Source: a virus
Direction: 5' to 3' (one strand)
IMG/VR virus record: IMGVR_UViG_3300030329_003131
Location: 1-41,409 of that record
DNA: 41,409 nucleotides
This document shows positions 16,855-40,260 of this stretch, piece by piece (the stretch's first letter is position 1; each line of letters starts with the position of its first letter). Made by a program: the position numbers and the translations under genes. The notes beneath the pieces are model-generated. The model saw nothing but the letters and a program-made list of their open reading frames with translations, was not told where the DNA came from and searched no databases.

Positions 16855-17762
16855 TATAGTGATCCTTCCGGTACGCCGTATGTCCACCCAGAATCAGTCA
16901 TGGGTGGCAGCATCTGTCGGGTTACAATATCCCCAAGTACGTCTATGTTGTTCCTCCTTGCCCTACTCATAGCCTTCTGAAACTCAGCCTCTTCAATCAA
17001 GCCCCCCTCATCATCGCCCTCCTGCTGCTTGAGCAGTCGAGCTATTCCAAAATATAATGCTGGCTGAACGATAGGATGGATGTAACCATCCAAGGAGTCA
17101 GTGTCATTTTCTACTGTGAAGTCAGGGGTGTAGGAGTAGTACTGGTAGGTAATAGACTCGTTAGTAGTAGAGTCCATTGGGTATAATGCAAGCTGTATAA
17201 CCCCGGAAGAGTCAATACCCCATGGATATAAGTAGCATGGGGTACCCTTCTCGGTGAAATCGGGGTCTTGGCGCTGTATAATGCGAGGACGCTCTATAGA
17301 GAGTGTGTCGTTACCAGATTCGTTAAACGCACTGATAAGGGACTGTACGTTGCTTGCCCCAGAATACAACCTCGTAGTAGTGTCGCTGACGTAGGTTCCC
17401 AGATCCCCAGAGCTTGTACCACTAACTGTATCGGAAGTGGTAAACGTCCCAGATTCCGACTTGAAGGTGAGGGTGGACTCCCCAGCGGTATGGGATACTA
17501 CAGTAGCTGTTGCACTGGAAGAACTGCCTGTGATTGTATCTCCAGCAGTATATTGCTCAGAGGAGCCAATACCGGAGAGGGTCATTGTCTTAGTAGTAGT
17601 AATAGTCCCAGTTTTGAACTTCCACCACCAAGTGGCATCTCCCTCAATCTCTTTGATTACCGCATTGAGATAGGTTCTGCCGTAGTCCTTGTAGGCTGTA
17701 TTTGTCTCTTCAAGACCAGCCCTTCTGAGGCCGACCTGTATAGTAGCGAGAACAGTTGCCAT
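16854..17762 (-). CDS. Head-tail adaptor protein with inserted beta domain
   Basis: This is a 302-residue protein. Residues 1-50 (VGLRRAGLEETNTAYKDYGRTYLNAVIKEIEGDATWWW) and the C-terminal helices (GYIHPIVQPALYFGIARLL, EAEFQKAMSRARRNN) are typical of short-tailed phage adaptor proteins (gp4/gp11-type) that dock under the portal ring. Between them, residues about 52-135 are a Ser/Thr/Gly-rich beta insertion (TGTITTTKTMTLSGIGSSE), probably a surface or decoration domain. It lies directly upstream of the nozzle-like gene, the classic order. Confidence 0.8.
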   Translation of the reverse strand: MATVLATIQVGLRRAGLEETNTAYKDYGRTYLNAVIKEIEGDATWWWKFKTGTITTTKTMTLSGIGSSEQYTAGDTITGSSSSATATVVSHTAGESTLTFKSESGTFTTSDTVSGTSSGDLGTYVSDTTTRLYSGASNVQSLISAFNESGNDTLSIERPRIIQRQDPDFTEKGTPCYLYPWGIDSSGVIQLALYPMDSTTNESITYQYYSYTPDFTVENDTDSLDGYIHPIVQPALYFGIARLLKQQEGDDEGGLIEEAEFQKAMSRARRNNIDVLGDIVTRQMLPPMTDSGWTYGVPEGSL

Positions 17763-17770
17763 GCGAGTCC

Positions 17771-17995
17771 TTAATGTAAGTCAGTCCAAGATCCGCCAGC
17801 ATAAACTTGTAACTTGTTCGTGGTTTCATTGTATACCACCATCCCATTACTCGCCGTAAGCGCGTTGCGCTCTGTGGTGGTAAGGGACGGGAACAGCACT
17901 GTCTCACCTGCCTCAAAGTTGTTTATACGGGCCGAGTTGCCAATGAAAGCGGTTGCTCTCGCCTCTCCACTGACATCAAGGTTCCTCGCGTTCAC
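17771..17995 (-). CDS. 74-aa small tail-fibre-like protein
   Basis: The C-terminal half, LTTTERNALTASNGMVVYNE followed by TTNKLQVYAGGSWTDLH, is a short motif that is very common at the ends of phage and bacterial fibre or receptor-binding proteins. The first half (VSGEARATAFIGNSARI) resembles a short fibre shaft. As a separate 74-residue gene between the adaptor and a 167-aa protein it may be a head fibre, a short tail fibre or a leftover of a larger one. The ATG overlaps the upstream stop at 17995. Confidence 0.75.
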   Translation of the reverse strand: MNARNLDVSGEARATAFIGNSARINNFEAGETVLFPSLTTTERNALTASNGMVVYNETTNKLQVYAGGSWTDLH

Positions 17996-18498
17996 TACCC
18001 GGTCAATCCTTCAGTGGGAAATTCCATCTGAGCGCGATCCGCAAGCTCTTCGGCACTGCCAAAATTCATGCCTTGGAGTGTCATCTGCCGCGATGAAATA
18101 GAATTACCCTCATGCCACCTGCGTAACCACGCCTTGGCGTGGGGTCCATTGCCAGAGGGATCTCCATCCTTGTCTGTAACCGAAGATGGAGGCACTGGCT
18201 CAAAGCCCTCTTCGTGAATGACGCTGCCAAACGCAGCTACCACACTCGATGGATTGGGAACCTTTTTCTTTTTAACGCCGGGCCTTTCCTGCCCAACTGC
18301 ATTGGGATTGTAACCGGAGGATTGAGACAGCTTCTGCACGATCTGTGCTTGTAATTCTGGGCTGGCTTTTTCCAAGATTCCAATCAACTGAGATGCAGTC
18401 TCGTCCGCATTTGGAGCTACTGCCGGAACTGGCGCAGTGTCTTCCGCTACGGTTACCGAAATCGGCTCTACAGCCTCGGTCTTTTTCTGATTAGCCAT
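17995..18498 (-). CDS. 167-aa protein of unknown function
   Basis: It starts MANQKKTEAVEPISV. Residues 1-35 are Ala/Pro/Val-rich and probably disordered, 36-62 form a helix (ASQLIGILEKASPELQAQIVQKL), and a basic KKKK patch follows near 77. The C-terminal half is mixed. No domain is recognised. It is the first gene after the hairpin that follows the capsid genes, and it overlaps the 74-aa gene start by one base. Virion or assembly roles are possible. Confidence 0.7.
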   Translation of the reverse strand: MANQKKTEAVEPISVTVAEDTAPVPAVAPNADETASQLIGILEKASPELQAQIVQKLSQSSGYNPNAVGQERPGVKKKKVPNPSSVVAAFGSVIHEEGFEPVPPSSVTDKDGDPSGNGPHAKAWLRRWHEGNSISSRQMTLQGMNFGSAEELADRAQMEFPTEGLTG

Positions 18499-18522
18499 TA
18501 GTTCCTCTGTTTAGAGTAAAGG

Positions 18523-18564
18523 TTGCAGGTGGGTACCGTGTTCGCTGGGGGCACCCACCTGCAA
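18523..18564 (-). terminator. 12-bp-stem hairpin after the capsid decoration gene
   Basis: TTGCAGGTGGGT (18523-18534) pairs perfectly with ACCCACCTGCAA (18553-18564) around an 18-nt loop. It lies 6 bases beyond the stop of the leftward decoration gene. On the minus strand it is followed by CCTTTACTC, not a clean T-run, so it may be a partial terminator that reduces expression of genes after the capsid, or an RNA-processing or stability element. Confidence 0.65.
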
Positions 18565-18570
18565 GGTTAC

Positions 18571-19071
18571 TTAGTTGTCCAGACCATTTCTGACGAATGG
18601 GCGAGACAATTCAACGTCCGCAACGCCACTGGAAATGGCACTTGCGCCCTTCATGCCGCTAATAAAATCACCGGCTACATCTTCATCGTCTACCTCACCA
18701 GCAGTGCTGGTAAGGTAGCAGTCGCCATTGTCGGCAAAGCTCGCCGACACTTGTACAGACCCCTTGCCTTGGACCTGATACCATCCGTAGCGAGAGGCCA
18801 CCGTAGCCGCCATAGCGATGGCAATCGGGCCAATATCGTCGGCATCAGCCCTCTTTGTCGAATAATCGTCGGCATTATAGATAACTGCGTCACCGGCAAC
18901 GGTAGACGCAACGCCCTGAAGATAAATGAACTCACCATCGCCGCGATCATCGTCACCAGTATCGCTGGCCGTAACAATAGCGCCAAGCTGGTGATTCTTG
19001 ACCGTTGACACATCGGTGATGGGCTGTGCGCCGACAAAGCCGGGCTGGGTAACTTTCCAAGAAGCCGCCAT
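18571..19071 (-). CDS. Capsid decoration / head-stabilising protein
   Basis: This is a 166-residue beta-rich protein starting MAASWKVTQPGFVGAQPI, with a DTGDDDRGDGEFIYLQGVAS segment and a C-terminal VADVELSRPFVRNG. Proteins of this size and pattern, directly after the major capsid gene, are usually capsid-surface decoration proteins of aquatic phages. An RGD triplet (DDDRGDGEF) is present but may be chance. The ATG has GGAG upstream. It precedes the 12-bp hairpin at 18523-18564. Confidence 0.7.
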   Translation of the reverse strand: MAASWKVTQPGFVGAQPITDVSTVKNHQLGAIVTASDTGDDDRGDGEFIYLQGVASTVAGDAVIYNADDYSTKRADADDIGPIAIAMAATVASRYGWYQVQGKGSVQVSASFADNGDCYLTSTAGEVDDEDVAGDFISGMKGASAISSGVADVELSRPFVRNGLDN

Positions 19072-30024: not shown

Positions 30025-30861
30025 TCAGACCTCTACTTCGATCAGGTCGCCAGCAGCAGCGATCACGGTTTCGAGGGCGACCTCTTTCGTCCCACTGGTC
30101 GAGCGATCCGGTGCCGGGATCAGGATATCCCAATCGTCAGCTTCATCGTCTGAGATCGCGTTAGGAGTGCCGTATCCCCAACCAAGGGTACTCTGGTCTT
30201 TTGCGTCCAGTAGTTCGATCCACCTAAAGAATAGCCGCCGAAAAAACGCCGGGTGACATATCGCATACGCCATCCGGTCTACATCCACATACTCTTCACT
30301 ACTCTTAACGACTACGTTACAGGCCGCAGTTAGCCGGGGATCGTAACCCCCCGACAACCGGAAGCAGCTAACCAACTCTACAGCGTAGCCAGCAGCTTCC
30401 ATCGCATCCAGCAACGTCAGCACTGCACCCCCCATGTTGGTGGCGTATTTGGCGTTATTCCCGGCATGGTAACAGCCAGCAATGCCGATCCGCAAAACAG
30501 GTCTGGCCTCCTCATCCGACCAGCCCATCATATTCTCAGGATTGCCCGACAAGAACTCTGGAATGTCGGGCGACATCCCGGTTACGTCCCACTCGTAAGA
30601 AGGGGCACCCAAGTCGAGCAGTTGCCGGGTGGCAGCCCGAACCTGAGCAATCGCTTTGCTGGCCTTCGGGTAACCAGTAACCCCCATCTCAACCGCACCC
30701 TCCCAACCAGCACCCAAGTCCCAACTCTTCGAGGCACTCGTCAGGCTACCGGGATCAGAGGCATACATACCCTCCGGGTTGGGAGGGGTGTTGGACATCT
30801 CGCTGACGAAATCCCAATACCCATACGTCTGGTATACGTGGCGTTCCTTGCGATCTCCCAT
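30025..30861 (-). CDS. VWA-like partner protein of the MoxR ATPase
   Basis: This is a 278-residue protein. The core (about residues 120-170) reads VLRIGIAGCYHAGNNAKYAT, then GGAVLTLLDAMEAAGYAVEL and a following strand: a hydrophobic strand, a loop, a long helix and a second strand, as in von Willebrand factor A domains. The metal-site DxSxS motif is missing (AGCYHAGN instead), so it would not bind metal in the usual way. It is encoded directly after a MoxR-type ATPase, and MoxR-VWA pairs are a well-known chaperone module. The start has GGAGGG upstream. The VWA assignment is by pattern and context and is moderately sure. Confidence 0.65.
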   Translation of the reverse strand: MGDRKERHVYQTYGYWDFVSEMSNTPPNPEGMYASDPGSLTSASKSWDLGAGWEGAVEMGVTGYPKASKAIAQVRAATRQLLDLGAPSYEWDVTGMSPDIPEFLSGNPENMMGWSDEEARPVLRIGIAGCYHAGNNAKYATNMGGAVLTLLDAMEAAGYAVELVSCFRLSGGYDPRLTAACNVVVKSSEEYVDVDRMAYAICHPAFFRRLFFRWIELLDAKDQSTLGWGYGTPNAISDDEADDWDILIPAPDRSTSGTKEVALETVIAAAGDLIEVEV

Positions 30862-30863
30862 GG

Positions 30864-32330
30864 TTACTGGCCCTCCGTTTCAGCCTTAGCTTCCTTGGCC
30901 TTGGCTTCCTCTTCGATCCTCCTCATCTCCTGACGAATCTGGCGGATCTGGCCGTCATCAAGACCGGAGAAGAGATACCTTTTCTTCCGGGCTGTGGTTA
31001 GTTTCTGGCCGCTCTCAATAGCCCTAACTCCCCGGCGACTTGCTCTCATCGAAACAACCCGTTCCTTCCTCAGATTCTCGACCGCTTGACGGGTCAACTG
31101 GACCTCATCAATCCACTCCCGTCTGCGCTTTGAGAATTTGTCTTCAGCCCCATAGCCAAAGATCGCCTTTTCGTAGTTCCCATCATACCCACACTCAATC
31201 TGGACAAAGCGGTCCAGGCTGGCTTGGTCGAGTGCATTACGACCTACGTAGAGACGGGAGGCCCCGGTGCCGTAGGTGTTCATACTCGCTACTACGAGGT
31301 GCCTGTCAGTCAACTCGACTACAAGACCGCCGGGAAATTCGACCGACCTATTGTCGAGAAGCTCATGTAAGGGGGTGATCGCTTTCGGTAGGCTGCCATC
31401 CAACTCATCGAAATTCAGCACCCCCCCGTTGGGGTTGGTAGCCCAGCGATACATCGCCGTTATAGCCCTCTCACCTTTGGCATCCAGATAGCCAAGTGTC
31501 TCGTGTTTGGAGAAGATCGCTCCATGGCTATAGTAGTCCAAGCCAAGGGCCTCCGCAGCCTTCCGCGCAGCACTCGTTTTGCCGCTACCCGCCGGGCCAA
31601 TCAACACCACATTCTCCAGCAAGGAAAGTTCCTCCAACATCTCACCGAATACCGAGTGGACGGGACCGATGGACTCGAAGTCGATCTCGTCAAATCCGGG
31701 GAAATCCGCTGGCGTGTAGCCGGGACCAGCGGGGGCCTCCTTACGCTCTTTTTCTAACCGAGAGATAATTTCCCGGCACTGCTCGTAGACGGGCAGCCAC
31801 TTAGACCGCTCGTCCCTCTCTGTTTCCCTCCCGATGGCTTTCCCCATCTCCTCCCAAGAGGAGTCCATCGGCGTATCCTCCCGGCCTTCGATGCCGGGTG
31901 CCTCCGGGGGGGGTGGCATCTCAGAGGGCTGACCGCCCTCGCCCTCGCCCTCGCCCTCTTCTTCACCGTCACCCTCTCCCTGCCCTTGGCCGCCCTCACC
32001 CTCTTTGCCCTCTTCGCCCTCTTCATTATATTGGCCTTCGCCCTGACCTTCCTCCCGACCTTCTTCGCTCTGACCTTGGCCTTCGCTCTGGCCTTTGCCC
32101 TCTTGACCTTCCACTTCGATACCTCCTCCGGTTTTGTCCTCGTGTTGACGATCCGATTCTGGCATATCGCCCTCTGGATCAGTTCCGAATTCTTCCTGAC
32201 CCGAATCACCTTCCGTTTGGCGGCGGCGATAGGCATCCTGGTAATGCGCCCCACACATCCCCATCTTCCCGTTGTCCTTCCGCTCTGCACTGCGGGTGCA
32301 GCCCTCAATGTTGCAAATTCGCTTGCTCAA
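30864..32330 (-). CDS. MoxR/CbbQ-type AAA+ ATPase with N-terminal zinc finger and Gly/Glu-rich linker
   Basis: The frame is open to 32438, but a promoter (32388-32416) lies inside that extension, and TTG at 32330 has GGGAGAGAG just upstream, so 488 residues are preferred. Order (numbered on the longest frame): a small zinc finger (ICNIEGCTRS...MCGAHY, 41-66), a very low-complexity Gly/Glu/Gln linker (about 103-180), then the ATPase: Walker A GPAGSGKT (281-288), Walker B VLNFDELD (340-347), sensor Asn in VASMNTYG, and arginine finger in DQASLDRF (R410). MoxR ATPases remodel protein partners with a VWA subunit, encoded next here. The phage role is unknown. It is the first gene of the leftward operon. 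Confidence 0.85.
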   Translation of the reverse strand: MSKRICNIEGCTRSAERKDNGKMGMCGAHYQDAYRRRQTEGDSGQEEFGTDPEGDMPESDRQHEDKTGGGIEVEGQEGKGQSEGQGQSEEGREEGQGEGQYNEEGEEGKEGEGGQGQGEGDGEEEGEGEGEGGQPSEMPPPPEAPGIEGREDTPMDSSWEEMGKAIGRETERDERSKWLPVYEQCREIISRLEKERKEAPAGPGYTPADFPGFDEIDFESIGPVHSVFGEMLEELSLLENVVLIGPAGSGKTSAARKAAEALGLDYYSHGAIFSKHETLGYLDAKGERAITAMYRWATNPNGGVLNFDELDGSLPKAITPLHELLDNRSVEFPGGLVVELTDRHLVVASMNTYGTGASRLYVGRNALDQASLDRFVQIECGYDGNYEKAIFGYGAEDKFSKRRREWIDEVQLTRQAVENLRKERVVSMRASRRGVRAIESGQKLTTARKKRYLFSGLDDGQIRQIRQEMRRIEEEAKAKEAKAETEGQ

Positions 32331-32387
32331 TTTCTCTCTCCCGTGAGAGGTTATTTTCCCGGCCAGCCGGGTGCTGGTCGGACTCAC

Positions 32388-32416
32388 AATATAGGTAAAG
32401 GGACTACGATATGCAA
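32388..32416 (-). promoter_or_regulatory. Sigma-70-like promoter for the MoxR operon
   Basis: On the minus strand TTGCAT (32411-32416) and TATATT (32388-32393) are separated by exactly 17 bases. The predicted start of transcription is near 32381, giving a 5' leader of about 50 nt before the TTG start. This promoter decides against the longer N-terminus. Confidence 0.65.
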
Positions 32417-32471
32417 GCGACAATTTATCGACCGTCAAACTGGGGGGTCAATTAATCGTCACTTCCCCGAC

Positions 32472-36480: not shown

Positions 36481-36774
36481 ATGTCTGTCAGTGATGCGAA
36501 GTCGATTGCGATGTCCTTAATAGATGAGTCCGACTCTTTTATATTGGTTACAAGGATTGTGTCGGATGAGGTAGTAGACGAAAGCGTTGATGGAGAGTCC
36601 GAAGATGAGGGTCAGGAGGTAAAGTATAAAGCCTATTTAATGGCCCACCCTAACCACTCCGTTGAAATGATAGAGTACTTATTCGACCGATTCCCGAAGA
36701 TCCCCAAGGCAGTCATAGAGCTTAGGGGGGAGGAAATGAAGGAGAAGAAGATATGGGTGCCGGAAGAGAGGTAA
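36481..36774 (+). CDS. 97-aa acidic protein, member 3 of the paralogous family
   Basis: The ATG directly follows the terminator T-run. The product has IDESDSFILVTRIVSDE, an acidic break, VKYKAYLMAHPNHSVEM, and a helix (IEYLFDRFPKIPKAVIELRG), the same order as the genes at 33110 and 33421. Expression must depend on read-through or anti-termination at 36444-36480, or on a different promoter. The function is unknown. It overlaps the RusA-like gene by 22 bases. Confidence 0.75.
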   Translation: MSVSDAKSIAMSLIDESDSFILVTRIVSDEVVDESVDGESEDEGQEVKYKAYLMAHPNHSVEMIEYLFDRFPKIPKAVIELRGEEMKEKKIWVPEER

Positions 36775-37145
36775 CTGTAACCCTCCATGGTTACATACCC
36801 ACCCTTAATGAGTACATAAACGCCGAGCGGACCCATCGGCTCAGGGGGGCAAGGATGAAGAAAAGGGCTGAGAGTGACTTGATTGCCCAATTTTTATCCC
36901 ATAAAATCTCCCCCTTTGATTCGGTACACCTTGGTTACAACTGGGTTCGACTCCACAAAAGAGAAGACAAAGACAATGTTTCTTTTGGTCAAAAATTTGT
37001 ACAGGATGCCATGGTTAAGTCTGGGGTGGTCAGTAATGATGGGTGGAATAAGGTGATAGGGTTTGATCACAATTTCTCTGTTGACAAGTCCATTAAGAAG
37101 CCTAAATTGATACTCACCATTAAGAGCGGTGTGGTGGAGGAGTAG
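36753..37145 (+). CDS. RusA-like Holliday-junction resolvase
   Basis: This is a 130-residue protein. The N-terminus has the family opening, HGYIPTLNEYINAERTHRLR. The active-site area has REDKDNVSFGQKFVQDAMVK and NDGWNKVIGFDHNF, with the conserved Asp residues of RusA enzymes (DKDN and NDGW). These dimeric nucleases cut four-way junctions and branches during phage recombination and before packaging. The start lies inside the 97-aa gene with GGAG upstream. Size and motifs fit well. Confidence 0.88.
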   Translation: MGAGREVTVTLHGYIPTLNEYINAERTHRLRGARMKKRAESDLIAQFLSHKISPFDSVHLGYNWVRLHKREDKDNVSFGQKFVQDAMVKSGVVSNDGWNKVIGFDHNFSVDKSIKKPKLILTIKSGVVEE

Positions 37146-37160
37146 TAGTGTGGTGATGTC

Positions 37161-37269
37161 TTGTCCTTTCCTATGGTTCGGGGAGTGAGACATAGGAAGG
37201 GCCATAGGGGGGGAGGGGCGAATGGCAAAGGACAATTCGGTCTTACTTGCCATGGGGAGCGTCCCTCCC
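37161..37269 (+). other. Two strong hairpins after the RusA-like gene
   Basis: Hairpin 1: CCTTTCCTATG (37165-37175) with CATAGGAAGG (37191-37200), one bulge. Hairpin 2 has two stacked stems: GGGAGGG (37211-37217) with CCCTCCC (37263-37269) and ATGGCAA (37222-37228) with TTGCCAT (37247-37253). Neither ends in a T-run. They may stop or protect the upstream mRNA, or belong to the structured region that follows. Confidence 0.65.
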
Positions 37270-37278
37270 ACTAACCCC

Positions 37279-37307
37279 TTGACAGTTGAATGATAATTGT
37301 ATATATT
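37279..37307 (+). promoter_or_regulatory. Near-consensus sigma-70 promoter before the structured region
   Basis: TTGACA (37279-37284) and TATATT (37302-37307) are separated by exactly 17 bases. The predicted start is about 37314. No start codon with a ribosome-binding site follows until 37840, so the transcript begins with about 525 non-coding nucleotides. Confidence 0.85.
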
Positions 37308-37313
37308 AGTACA

Positions 37314-37839
37314 AGTAGCCGATAGGGTGTCGGTTCAAAAGAGAAACGGTACTATAGTGGAATATAAAAATTTGGCCCCTCTTGTGGCCCCTCACGATGG
37401 CTTCGCTTCCGCAACCTCCTCGCGGACACTGGGCCGCCGCTTTCTCTCCCATTTACTTGGCAATCGAATGGGTTTCTTGAGGGTCATCCCGCACAAGATG
37501 GGGCCTTTTACTTTCTCTTTGATGGGGGTTGCAACGACCAAGGCATCAAAGAGGTCACACTTCCTACCTTGGGGCGCGACTACAGGAAGATCCCGGCTGA
37601 AGGCACCGAGGGATAGTCGCACGGTGGGCAGATACATCGTTTAAAGTAGGGTGCAAATTCCGAGTCACTGCCTGACCGGAATCGACCGATGCGGGGAACT
37701 CGTCCGAAAGGGGCAAGTTTAGCCGCGAGGGGAGCAGACGATCCACTGGCTTGATATAGGCCGGGGCTAAAGGATCGCTGTGCTTCCCTCCGCGAAGAAT
37801 CTGAACCGAAGGGGCAATTTAACCCACAGGAGGTAAGGG
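37314..37839 (+). ncRNA. Candidate large structured RNA or riboregulatory leader (about 525 nt)
   Basis: No credible gene lies here, but many perfect or near-perfect helices can be drawn: 37317-322/330-335; 37374-386/492-505 (13 bp, one bulge, long range); 37408-412/422-426; 37448-453/467-472; 37515-524/544-553 (10 bp perfect, capped by 527-531/535-539); 37576-582/614-620 with 591-594/610-613 stacked inside; 37657-666/674-682 (9 bp, one bulge); 37724-736/781-794 extended by 739-744/772-777. CTTCCT (560-565) with AGGAAG (584-589) would form a pseudoknot. A short element CCGAA(A)GGGGCAA occurs at 37704 and 37806. No T-run terminator is found before the gene at 37840. It could be a free large phage RNA (GOLLD- or ROOL-like in scale) or a regulatory leader. 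I know no match by sequence. Confidence 0.7.
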
Positions 37840-38091
37840 ATGAGCCAAAAGTTCACCGTCAAGAACCCCGACCAGCTACGGTGCGTCCTCGTTGACGTTG
37901 GCGTAGATGAGGATGCAATTGATAGGATGGTTGTTCAAATCTCCGATGACCTAAAAAGCACCGGAGAGGTCTTTCTATGGGATGGAAAGGGAGGATTTGA
38001 AACTATCACCAACCACGCACTTGCCGAGAGGAGGGTAAAACATGGAACGCTCAACGGAAAACCAAAACCGTCCAGAAAACGCTACAAGTAA
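37840..38091 (+). CDS. 83-aa protein of unknown function
   Basis: AGGAGGTAAGGG lies directly upstream of the ATG, just after the structured region, whose 3' part is 18-30 bases away. The product is MSQKFTVKNPDQLRCVLVDV, acidic in the middle, with a basic C-terminus (HGTLNGKPKPSRKRYK) that may touch nucleic acid. No family is recognised. It overlaps the next gene by 50 bases. Confidence 0.7.
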   Translation: MSQKFTVKNPDQLRCVLVDVGVDEDAIDRMVVQISDDLKSTGEVFLWDGKGGFETITNHALAERRVKHGTLNGKPKPSRKRYK

Positions 38092-38936: not shown

Positions 38937-39235
38937 GTGGAGAAATTAGATCATTCCCTATACCCCAAGACTGGAAATCCGCCAAAGATGGTAAGGGCGC
39001 TATGGATATGCCTATATTTACCAAGATCATCAATGTTGGTTACAATGAGCATCAAGCCCTAATGGTTTGGGGCATTGTCCAAGACGGATGGAAGGACCAA
39101 GTGGCCCCCTATAAGTTTCAAATACGAAAAGATGGTGATAGGATGGAGGGGTCAGATACGACCAGCCAATTTGTTGGTATGGTGGATATAGATGGAACCA
39201 ATCATGCTGTATTTTTTGGAGGATCTACGTCATAA
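38933..39235 (+). CDS. 100-aa protein of unknown function
   Basis: GGAGGGATCACA precedes the ATG. The product is beta-rich with aromatic residues (FTKIINVGYNEHQALMVWGI, FVGMVDIDGTNHAVFFGG). No motif is recognised. The ATGA overlap links it to the upstream gene, and TAATG to the endolysin. Confidence 0.65.
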   Translation: MSGEIRSFPIPQDWKSAKDGKGAMDMPIFTKIINVGYNEHQALMVWGIVQDGWKDQVAPYKFQIRKDGDRMEGSDTTSQFVGMVDIDGTNHAVFFGGSTS

Positions 39236-39705
39236 TGGACGAACTTAAGGAACAGGCAGTTCAGCATTCGTTTTGCAAAGAAACATTGCGCGAGGATTGG
39301 CCTTCGGGTAGGTGGCCCAACTTCTCCTTCGATGAAATGGCTTGTCGCCACACCGGGCTGTGTTATATCAGTTGGTTACTGATGGATCACCTACAGAGAA
39401 TGAGGGTTGAGCTTGGCGCTCCACTCACGGTTACAAGTGGTTACAGGCATCCCACTCACCCAGTTGAAGCCGCTAAGTCGGGCGGTCCCGGCGCTCATGC
39501 CACAGGTAAAGCGGTTGATATAAAATGCCACGGCATACTGGCATGGAGAATCCTTGGGTGGAGAGGGCCAAGTTACATAGATCCAACCTTCTCTGGTATT
39601 GGAGTCTCTCAATCGGGACCGCAAGACCAGAGGTTTCTCCATCTCGACATCATCGACAAGCCAGAGGAATTTCATGCCCCCCGGCCTTGGGTCTGGAGTT
39701 ACTAA
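39235..39705 (+). CDS. Endolysin, peptidase M15-type
   Basis: This is a 156-residue protein. The zinc-peptidase motifs are complete: TSGYRHPTHPVEAAKSGGPG, then AHATGKAVDI (the SxHxxGxAxD-type motif with zinc-binding His and Asp), and later QRFLHLDII (third zinc ligand). This is the D-Ala-D-Ala carboxypeptidase / L-Ala-D-Glu peptidase group used by phages to cut peptidoglycan. The first about 50 residues (NFSFDEMACRHTGLC) are the usual start of this family. No signal peptide is seen, so it needs a holin; candidate holins lie in the leftward cassettes at 0.9-2.3 kb and 40.4-41.4 kb. Confidence 0.9.
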   Translation: MDELKEQAVQHSFCKETLREDWPSGRWPNFSFDEMACRHTGLCYISWLLMDHLQRMRVELGAPLTVTSGYRHPTHPVEAAKSGGPGAHATGKAVDIKCHGILAWRILGWRGPSYIDPTFSGIGVSQSGPQDQRFLHLDIIDKPEEFHAPRPWVWSY

Positions 39706-40019
39706 TGAAAAAATCCACTGCCATACAATTAAAAGACAAAGCGATTAAGGTGGGCAGGGATTTTAGTAATCCAGACAGAGAGCTTAATAAAACCGGAGAA
39801 TCCTTTAAGGTTAAATCAATACGCCCACTGTCCGACCACATGGCAGCAGTGATTTACATTAAGAGCAGCAACAAGCTGGCGCTGGCCTTGTTTTACTATA
39901 TTCCAGCCAAGGAGAGGTGGGAGTACTTCTTTCCCACCGACTCCCACATATTGGGCCTAAGTGGATTCACTGAACTAAAGCAAAAAGTAGAAGAGTTTAA
40001 CTTTGATGCTAATTTTTAA
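39705..40019 (+). CDS. 104-aa protein downstream of the endolysin
   Basis: The frame opens at 39525, but the ATG at 39705 overlaps the endolysin stop (TAATG), has GGAG upstream and gives a natural start, MKKSTAIQLKDKAIKVGRDF. The product is alpha/beta with strands (HMAAVIYIKSSNKLALALFY) and a C-terminal helix. No family is recognised. Confidence 0.7.
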   Translation: MKKSTAIQLKDKAIKVGRDFSNPDRELNKTGESFKVKSIRPLSDHMAAVIYIKSSNKLALALFYYIPAKERWEYFFPTDSHILGLSGFTELKQKVEEFNFDANF

Positions 40020-40026
40020 AGAGCAA

Positions 40027-40260
40027 ATGACTTACAATACCCCAGAGCTTGCGAATCTACTTGGAATACCAGTTAGGCTTCTCCAAACATGGCACAACAA
40101 AGGCTGGTTACTGCCCTCTATAAAAGAGGCTTCTGGTCATGGAACGAGAAGGATCTGGAGTCATAATGATCTTGAAAGGGGGCTTTTGGTAAAGCAATTA
40201 AGCCGCCTACTAAACCCGACTCTTGTTCACCAGATAACAGCGCAGTTCAAATCTAATTAA
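40027..40260 (+). CDS. MerR-type helix-turn-helix protein (regulator or excisionase-like)
   Basis: Residues TYNTPELANLLGIPVRLLQT then WHNKGWLLPSIKEASGHGTR and RIWSHNDLERGLLVKQLSRL form a full MerR-type winged helix-turn-helix. A longer start at 40006 is possible (overlapping the upstream gene), but the ATG at 40027 fits the family opening. The effector domain is missing, so it is a small DNA-binding protein such as an excisionase or late regulator. It is last in its operon and lies 18 bases before the third TTGAAC palindrome. Confidence 0.8.
   Translation: MTYNTPELANLLGIPVRLLQTWHNKGWLLPSIKEASGHGTRRIWSHNDLERGLLVKQLSRLLNPTLVHQITAQFKSN

Follow-up and report, generated by a model that had tools for sequence, protein, structure and literature searches.

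The large phage RNAs GOLLD and ROOL assemble as RNA-only homo-oligomeric cages. Both are large structured RNAs of phages and prophages whose function is open (PMC12286853). The level of GOLLD rises in lysis, and its 3' part is conserved, the 5' part less so (PMC12286853). Phages are known to encode few classes of large structured RNA, whose functions are open; the one described here is compact, and its fold is defined. The window analysed here, a contig of 41,409 nucleotides (41.4 kb), was assigned to an uncultivated tailed phage by terminase and capsid matches. The RNA found in it is, like GOLLD and ROOL, large, structured and phage-encoded. Unlike GOLLD, many members of which exceed 800 nt, it has a core of only ~300 nt, and unlike GOLLD and ROOL, which often lie near tRNA islands, it was found in a window without tRNA genes according to ARAGORN. 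At the gathering threshold, none of the Rfam 15 models matched anywhere in the window, GOLLD, ROOL, HEARO, OLE and raiA included; at E ≤ 5, positions 37150-37900 yielded only chance matches to unrelated families. The original prediction had been unable to match the sequence to any known class, and the Rfam search likewise returned no family, excluding GOLLD, ROOL and HEARO. What is new is the family itself; RNAs of its kind, large, structured and phage-borne like GOLLD and ROOL, are already known.

The gap and its promoter

A 694-nt interval devoid of credible genes separates a RusA-like resolvase gene (36753-37145) from the gene for an 83-aa protein. The elements framing the RNA are:

37279-37307, + strand: sigma-70-type promoter TTGACA-N17-TATATT (consensus scan, 11/12), expected transcription start ~37314
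37840-38091, + strand: next gene, 83 aa, function unassigned, with Shine-Dalgarno AGGAGG at 37828-37833
39235-39705, + strand: M15-type peptidase (endolysin; PF08291, E 8e-8; phrog_894 endolysin, E 1.8e-19), downstream of the RNA and in the same direction

The consensus scan thus recovered the strong promoter that had been read from the sequence by eye. On its plus strand, the right arm has three intergenic promoters with 11/12 consensus matches. Two of them are followed by short leaders (within ~60 nt) ending in GAGGAGG and ATG; in the third, at 37279-37307, ~525 nt precede the AGGAGG-ATG at 37840. Apart from a weak match (37487), a scan for terminators detected none in 37314-37839.

The longest open run in the gap comprises 115 codons, which is within chance expectation in shuffled sequence (P 0.27), and begins within the -10 box. 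Its translation had no match in PHROG or Pfam and no relative by tblastn against phages, in agreement with the initial view that these ~525 nt hold no credible gene. The conserved core of the window contains three to five stops in each plus-strand frame, and the frame patterns differ in the related phage R introduced below. A protein frame conserved in relatives had been named as one observation that would speak against an RNA; between the window and R, no frame was conserved. A protein encoded in the gap was rejected because the open run is of chance length, without relatives and without a conserved frame.

A second strongly folded stretch (z -3.16) lies between RusA and the promoter (37146-37278). 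It contains two mutually exclusive hairpins, in which 37161-37174 pairs with either 37191-37204 or 37222-37235. It also holds a run rich in G and, at 37222, an ORF of 23 codons with a good Shine-Dalgarno. Elsewhere in the window, an AAA ATPase that falls into the phrog_249 group ('porphyrin biosynthesis'; 30864-32438, minus strand) adjoins a DUF7192 protein (30025-30861, minus strand), and a small MerR-type HTH protein is encoded close to the end of the lysis operon (40003-40260, plus strand).

Relatives in two further phages

Two phages were fetched because they share single genes with the window: R (contig 3300030329_005262, L027), chosen via ~60% identical 37840 and 38042 proteins, and X (contig 3300035162_003924, L046), chosen via a 51% identical RusA. 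The RNA was located at 5675-5382 on the minus strand of R and at 1695-1980 of X. A covariance model built from the window only (37621-37812) matched R over its full length with E 0.001-0.005. The 3' domains of the window and R are 52% identical, and their global alignment gave a z of 8.7, a score reached by 0/1000 shuffles. The 5' halves of the two RNAs were not significantly similar by plain sequence alignment (z 0.1). A window-only model of the 5' part (37512-37620) had its best match at 5675-5563 of R (9.0 bits, the next at 0.2, in a 500-nt search), and this match abuts that of the 3' domain (5564-5382). In R, the preceding stop codon lies only ~15 nt before the core. The combined window and R model in turn matched X at 1799-1980 (E 0.0006); here, too, a match of the 5' model (1695-1800; weak, E 0.08) abuts the 3' domain.

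Wider searches gave no additional copies. Blastn against phages and plasmids, back-translated scans of IMG/VR and GTDB genomes for the RNA, and a profile of the downstream gene against genomes returned nothing, and exact-pattern searches for the RNA gave chance matches only. In the named phages that are capsid or terminase relatives (L035-L043), no copy was detectable with the two-sequence model. The whole-record search for the RNA missed even R, and its negatives were therefore left uncounted.

Over all 120 positions of its model, the Betaproteobacteria-1 RNA (RF02932) can be aligned with the 5' half of R. The likeness consists of a hairpin with GGUCGG...ACGGCAGC followed by a hairpin with the loop CUGUGGG, and the RF02932 model stops short of the four-way-junction domain. 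With 22.8 bits (E 0.028), R falls below the cut-off of 49.4, and RF02932 had no match in the window or X, nor by whole-record searches. Membership in RF02932 is therefore not claimed, and this assignment was rejected.

A conserved pseudoknotted fold

The features of the RNA, all on the plus strand, are listed below.

37314-37511, +: window-specific 5' extension, without counterpart in R
37374-37386/37492-37505, +: 6+7-bp long-range helix within the 5' extension
37512-37812, +: conserved RNA core, ~300 nt; window and window+R models match R and X
37515-37553, +: H1, 10-bp outer stem and inner stem GGTTG/CGACC; R has a hairpin of other sequence at the same place
37560-37589, +: H2, CTTCCT/AGGAAG, with TTGGGG in the loop; counterparts in R and X
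37576-37620, +: pseudoknot PK, GCGACTA (37576-37582, H2 loop) with TAGTCGC (37614-37620); counterparts in R and X
37592-37612, +: H3, between the PK arms, CCCGG...CCGAGGG; R has the similar GGCCGAAAGGC...GAGGG
37621-37812, +: four-way-junction domain closed by P1, with a low folding z-score and covariation
37622-37625/37805-37808 and 37629-37633/37799-37803, +: P1, CGGT/ACCG and CAGAT/ATCTG
37650-37687, +: P2 hairpin, 8/12 pairs changed on both sides in the three phages (helices 3, 4)
37691-37726, +: P3 hairpin with GAAAG tip, double changes in 8/12 pairs (helix 5); CTCGTCCGAAAG identical between window and R
37727-37790, +: P4 hairpin, double changes in 10/11 pairs of the lower stem (helix 6)

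The stretch had been proposed as a structured RNA of 525 nt. It is structured, but the conserved part covers only ~300 nt (37512-37812). The long-range helix at 37374-386/492-505, drawn as 13 bp, exists as 6+7 bp around a one-base bulge, and the argument that it would not be expected by chance did not hold, as equally good helices occurred in 10/60 shuffles. It lies in the 5' part that is missing from R and, like the rest of these 200 nt, is unsupported by comparison. Both the 10-bp hairpin (37515-524/544-553) and the two-part 3' hairpin, here P4, are present in the sequence. In the 5' extension, a hairpin loop ACCTCCT (37414-37420), equal to the 16S rRNA anti-Shine-Dalgarno, was predicted to be 98% unpaired; it occurred in 4% of shuffles.

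The four-way-junction domain (37621-37812) had a z of -4.19 (200 shuffles; complement -3.22), with agreement of MFE and centroid structures. In a scan of 596 plus-strand windows of 192 nt, with extra ones around this region, 37611-37802 showed the lowest z and 37621-37812 the third lowest; since the domain had been picked after the fold was seen, the z-score is not proof by itself.

The covariation is drawn from only three sequences (window, R and X). In the two-sequence alignment of the window and R, 20 pairs were changed on both sides and 91% were paired. With X added, 35/56 pairs of the 3' domain were changed on both sides and 88% of the cells were paired, a number of double changes that 0/500 shuffles reached and that compares with ≤8 in slid control structures; as the model guided the alignments, these pair counts are biased in its favour. 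The inner stem of P1 was kept weakly (69% of cells). Between the window and R, identity was 65% at unpaired and 46% at paired positions, which is, as read from the sequences, the pattern of a selected fold. Covariation in divergent homologues, as called for at the outset, was thus found in the form of compensatory changes.

The pseudoknot, drawn by hand as 560-565/584-589 across 576-582/614-620, recurs in different letters at the same place in the other two phages. The H2 arms read CTTCCT/AGGAAG in the window, GCGCGC/GCGTGC in R and TGCTGA/TCAGCA in X, and the PK arms GCGACTA/TAGTCGC, CTTCTCA/TGGGAAG and CGCATC/GATGCG, respectively. A similar H2/PK arrangement was encountered in 24/3000 shuffles of R and in 0/3000 of X. 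None of the three models includes the PK pairs, which are therefore free of the model-fitting bias; their recurrence in R and X shows that the hand-drawn pseudoknot was right.

What the three phages conserve is hence the structure of the RNA, and neither a protein nor a close sequence; the architecture consists of H1, H2 with its loop pseudoknotted across H3, and a four-way junction of P1-P4. The same fold in very different letters in two distant phages identifies a real new RNA family. That the helices arose by chance, in a gap that is ordinary intergenic DNA or the remains of a decayed gene, would fit the unremarkable fold of the entire 526 nt (z -1.44, no more stable than chance) and the 10/60 shuffles that attained the best single helices. 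The compensatory changes across three phages, the recurring pseudoknot, the homology (z 8.7) and the lack of a common reading frame all contradict this explanation, which we regard as hardly credible.

Genomic context and proposed role

The RNA resides at different genomic places and is absent from one sister phage. In the window, it is followed by four genes and the M15 peptidase gene. In R, a Cro-type HTH gene, a 179-aa gene, the RNA, an M15 peptidase, the large terminase and a portal-like gene follow each other on one strand. In X, four small genes come after the RNA, then Amidase_3, a 221-aa gene and SSB. The RNA was thus located zero to four genes upstream of a peptidoglycan hydrolase gene on the same strand in 3/3 phages, a co-orientation that is suggestive of a link to lysis hydrolase genes. 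Lysis genes are common in phages, so that the three co-oriented cases may be coincidence. The R homologue of the 37840 gene lies ~5 kb from R's RNA on the opposite strand, and the RNA is missing beside it. A sister phage of X, G002, with 83-92% identical DNA nearby, is without the RNA; its flanking genes are adjacent, where X has 517 nt between them. With this empty site, and with another gene after the RNA in each phage, the RNA is a module gained or lost and not the fixed leader of one gene.

The gain or loss of ~517 nt between two genes, a position that differs in all three phages and a pseudoknotted core would also be compatible with a mobile or catalytic RNA, i.e. an intron-like or ribozyme element inserting between phage genes. 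The order of a hairpin, a PK arm in its loop, a further hairpin and the other PK arm resembles the P3/P7/P8 order of group I introns. Unlike these, the RNA interrupts no gene and has no P4-P6 domain, as only ~10 nt separate the 5' arm of H2 from the PK arm. A group I intron was rejected, since Rfam Intron_gpI gave no match at E ≤ 5; group II and ribozyme families did not match at this threshold either, and no endonuclease or transposase was recognised beside the RNA. A mobile or catalytic element therefore appears quite improbable.

The position immediately after a strong promoter and the lack of a terminator ahead of the next gene, together with a hydrolase gene downstream on the same strand in 3/3 cases, could be expected of a cis-acting leader of the lysis operon that controls its own transcript by RNA-based antitermination, processing or translation. 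For the latter, the Shine-Dalgarno AGGAGGU (37828-37834) is predicted to be able to pair with ACUUCCU (37559-37565) in competition with H2, and its predicted pairing falls from ~85-90% in the full leader to ~50% once the upstream part is left out. Such a translational switch would also draw on the ACCUCCU loop (37414-37420), and six Shine-Dalgarno complements were counted versus 1.4 expected. The sequestering pair clashes with the covarying H2, R has no Shine-Dalgarno before its next gene, and Shine-Dalgarno sites are similarly buried at other genes of the window phage; being confined to the window and incompatible with H2, the translational switch is retained as no more than a rival. Moreover, the gene directly after the RNA is different in each of the three phages, and the one in X is kept in the sister phage that lacks the RNA. 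We consider a leader, the main rival, possible, though unlikely.

A free-standing structured phage RNA of ~300 nt, belonging to a new family, made with lysis genes and acting in trans, is the interpretation we favour as reasonably probable. The RNA is probably expressed together with the lysis genes: it would be transcribed from the promoter at 37279 along with the lysis-gene operon. As there is no terminator behind it, it would work within the lysis transcript or be cut out of it. We infer an action in trans because the neighbouring gene differs in each phage; it would take place late in infection, as RNA or RNP, and host or phage factors may be bound through the conserved loops. That the RNA is a mobile pseudoknotted module, gained and lost beside lysis genes, which as an RNA machine or RNP determines in trans when or how the cell lyses is put forward tentatively; to our knowledge, no large structured RNA has been established in such a role. 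The class has three divergent members and a natural empty site, and it recurs upstream of lysis genes; it is directly testable by deletion, and its model can be applied to any phage genome.

No clear promoter was found upstream of the RNA in X. At 1649-1689 of this contig, a strong terminator-like hairpin (18 pairs, T-run) ends six bases before the core and possibly insulates or attenuates the X RNA. In the circular podovirus MW202803.1 (L038), a ~2-kb annotation gap on the plus strand (16963-18998) lies soon after rusA; it had no match in Rfam or to the RNA model. In a further contig (L002, 4540-4727; at the same place in L003), RusA and a small ORF are followed by a stretch resembling a promoter and by noncoding sequence that contains an 11-bp hairpin, and a hairpin with a T-run lies just before the next large gene. 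This stretch looks like another small RNA or leader.
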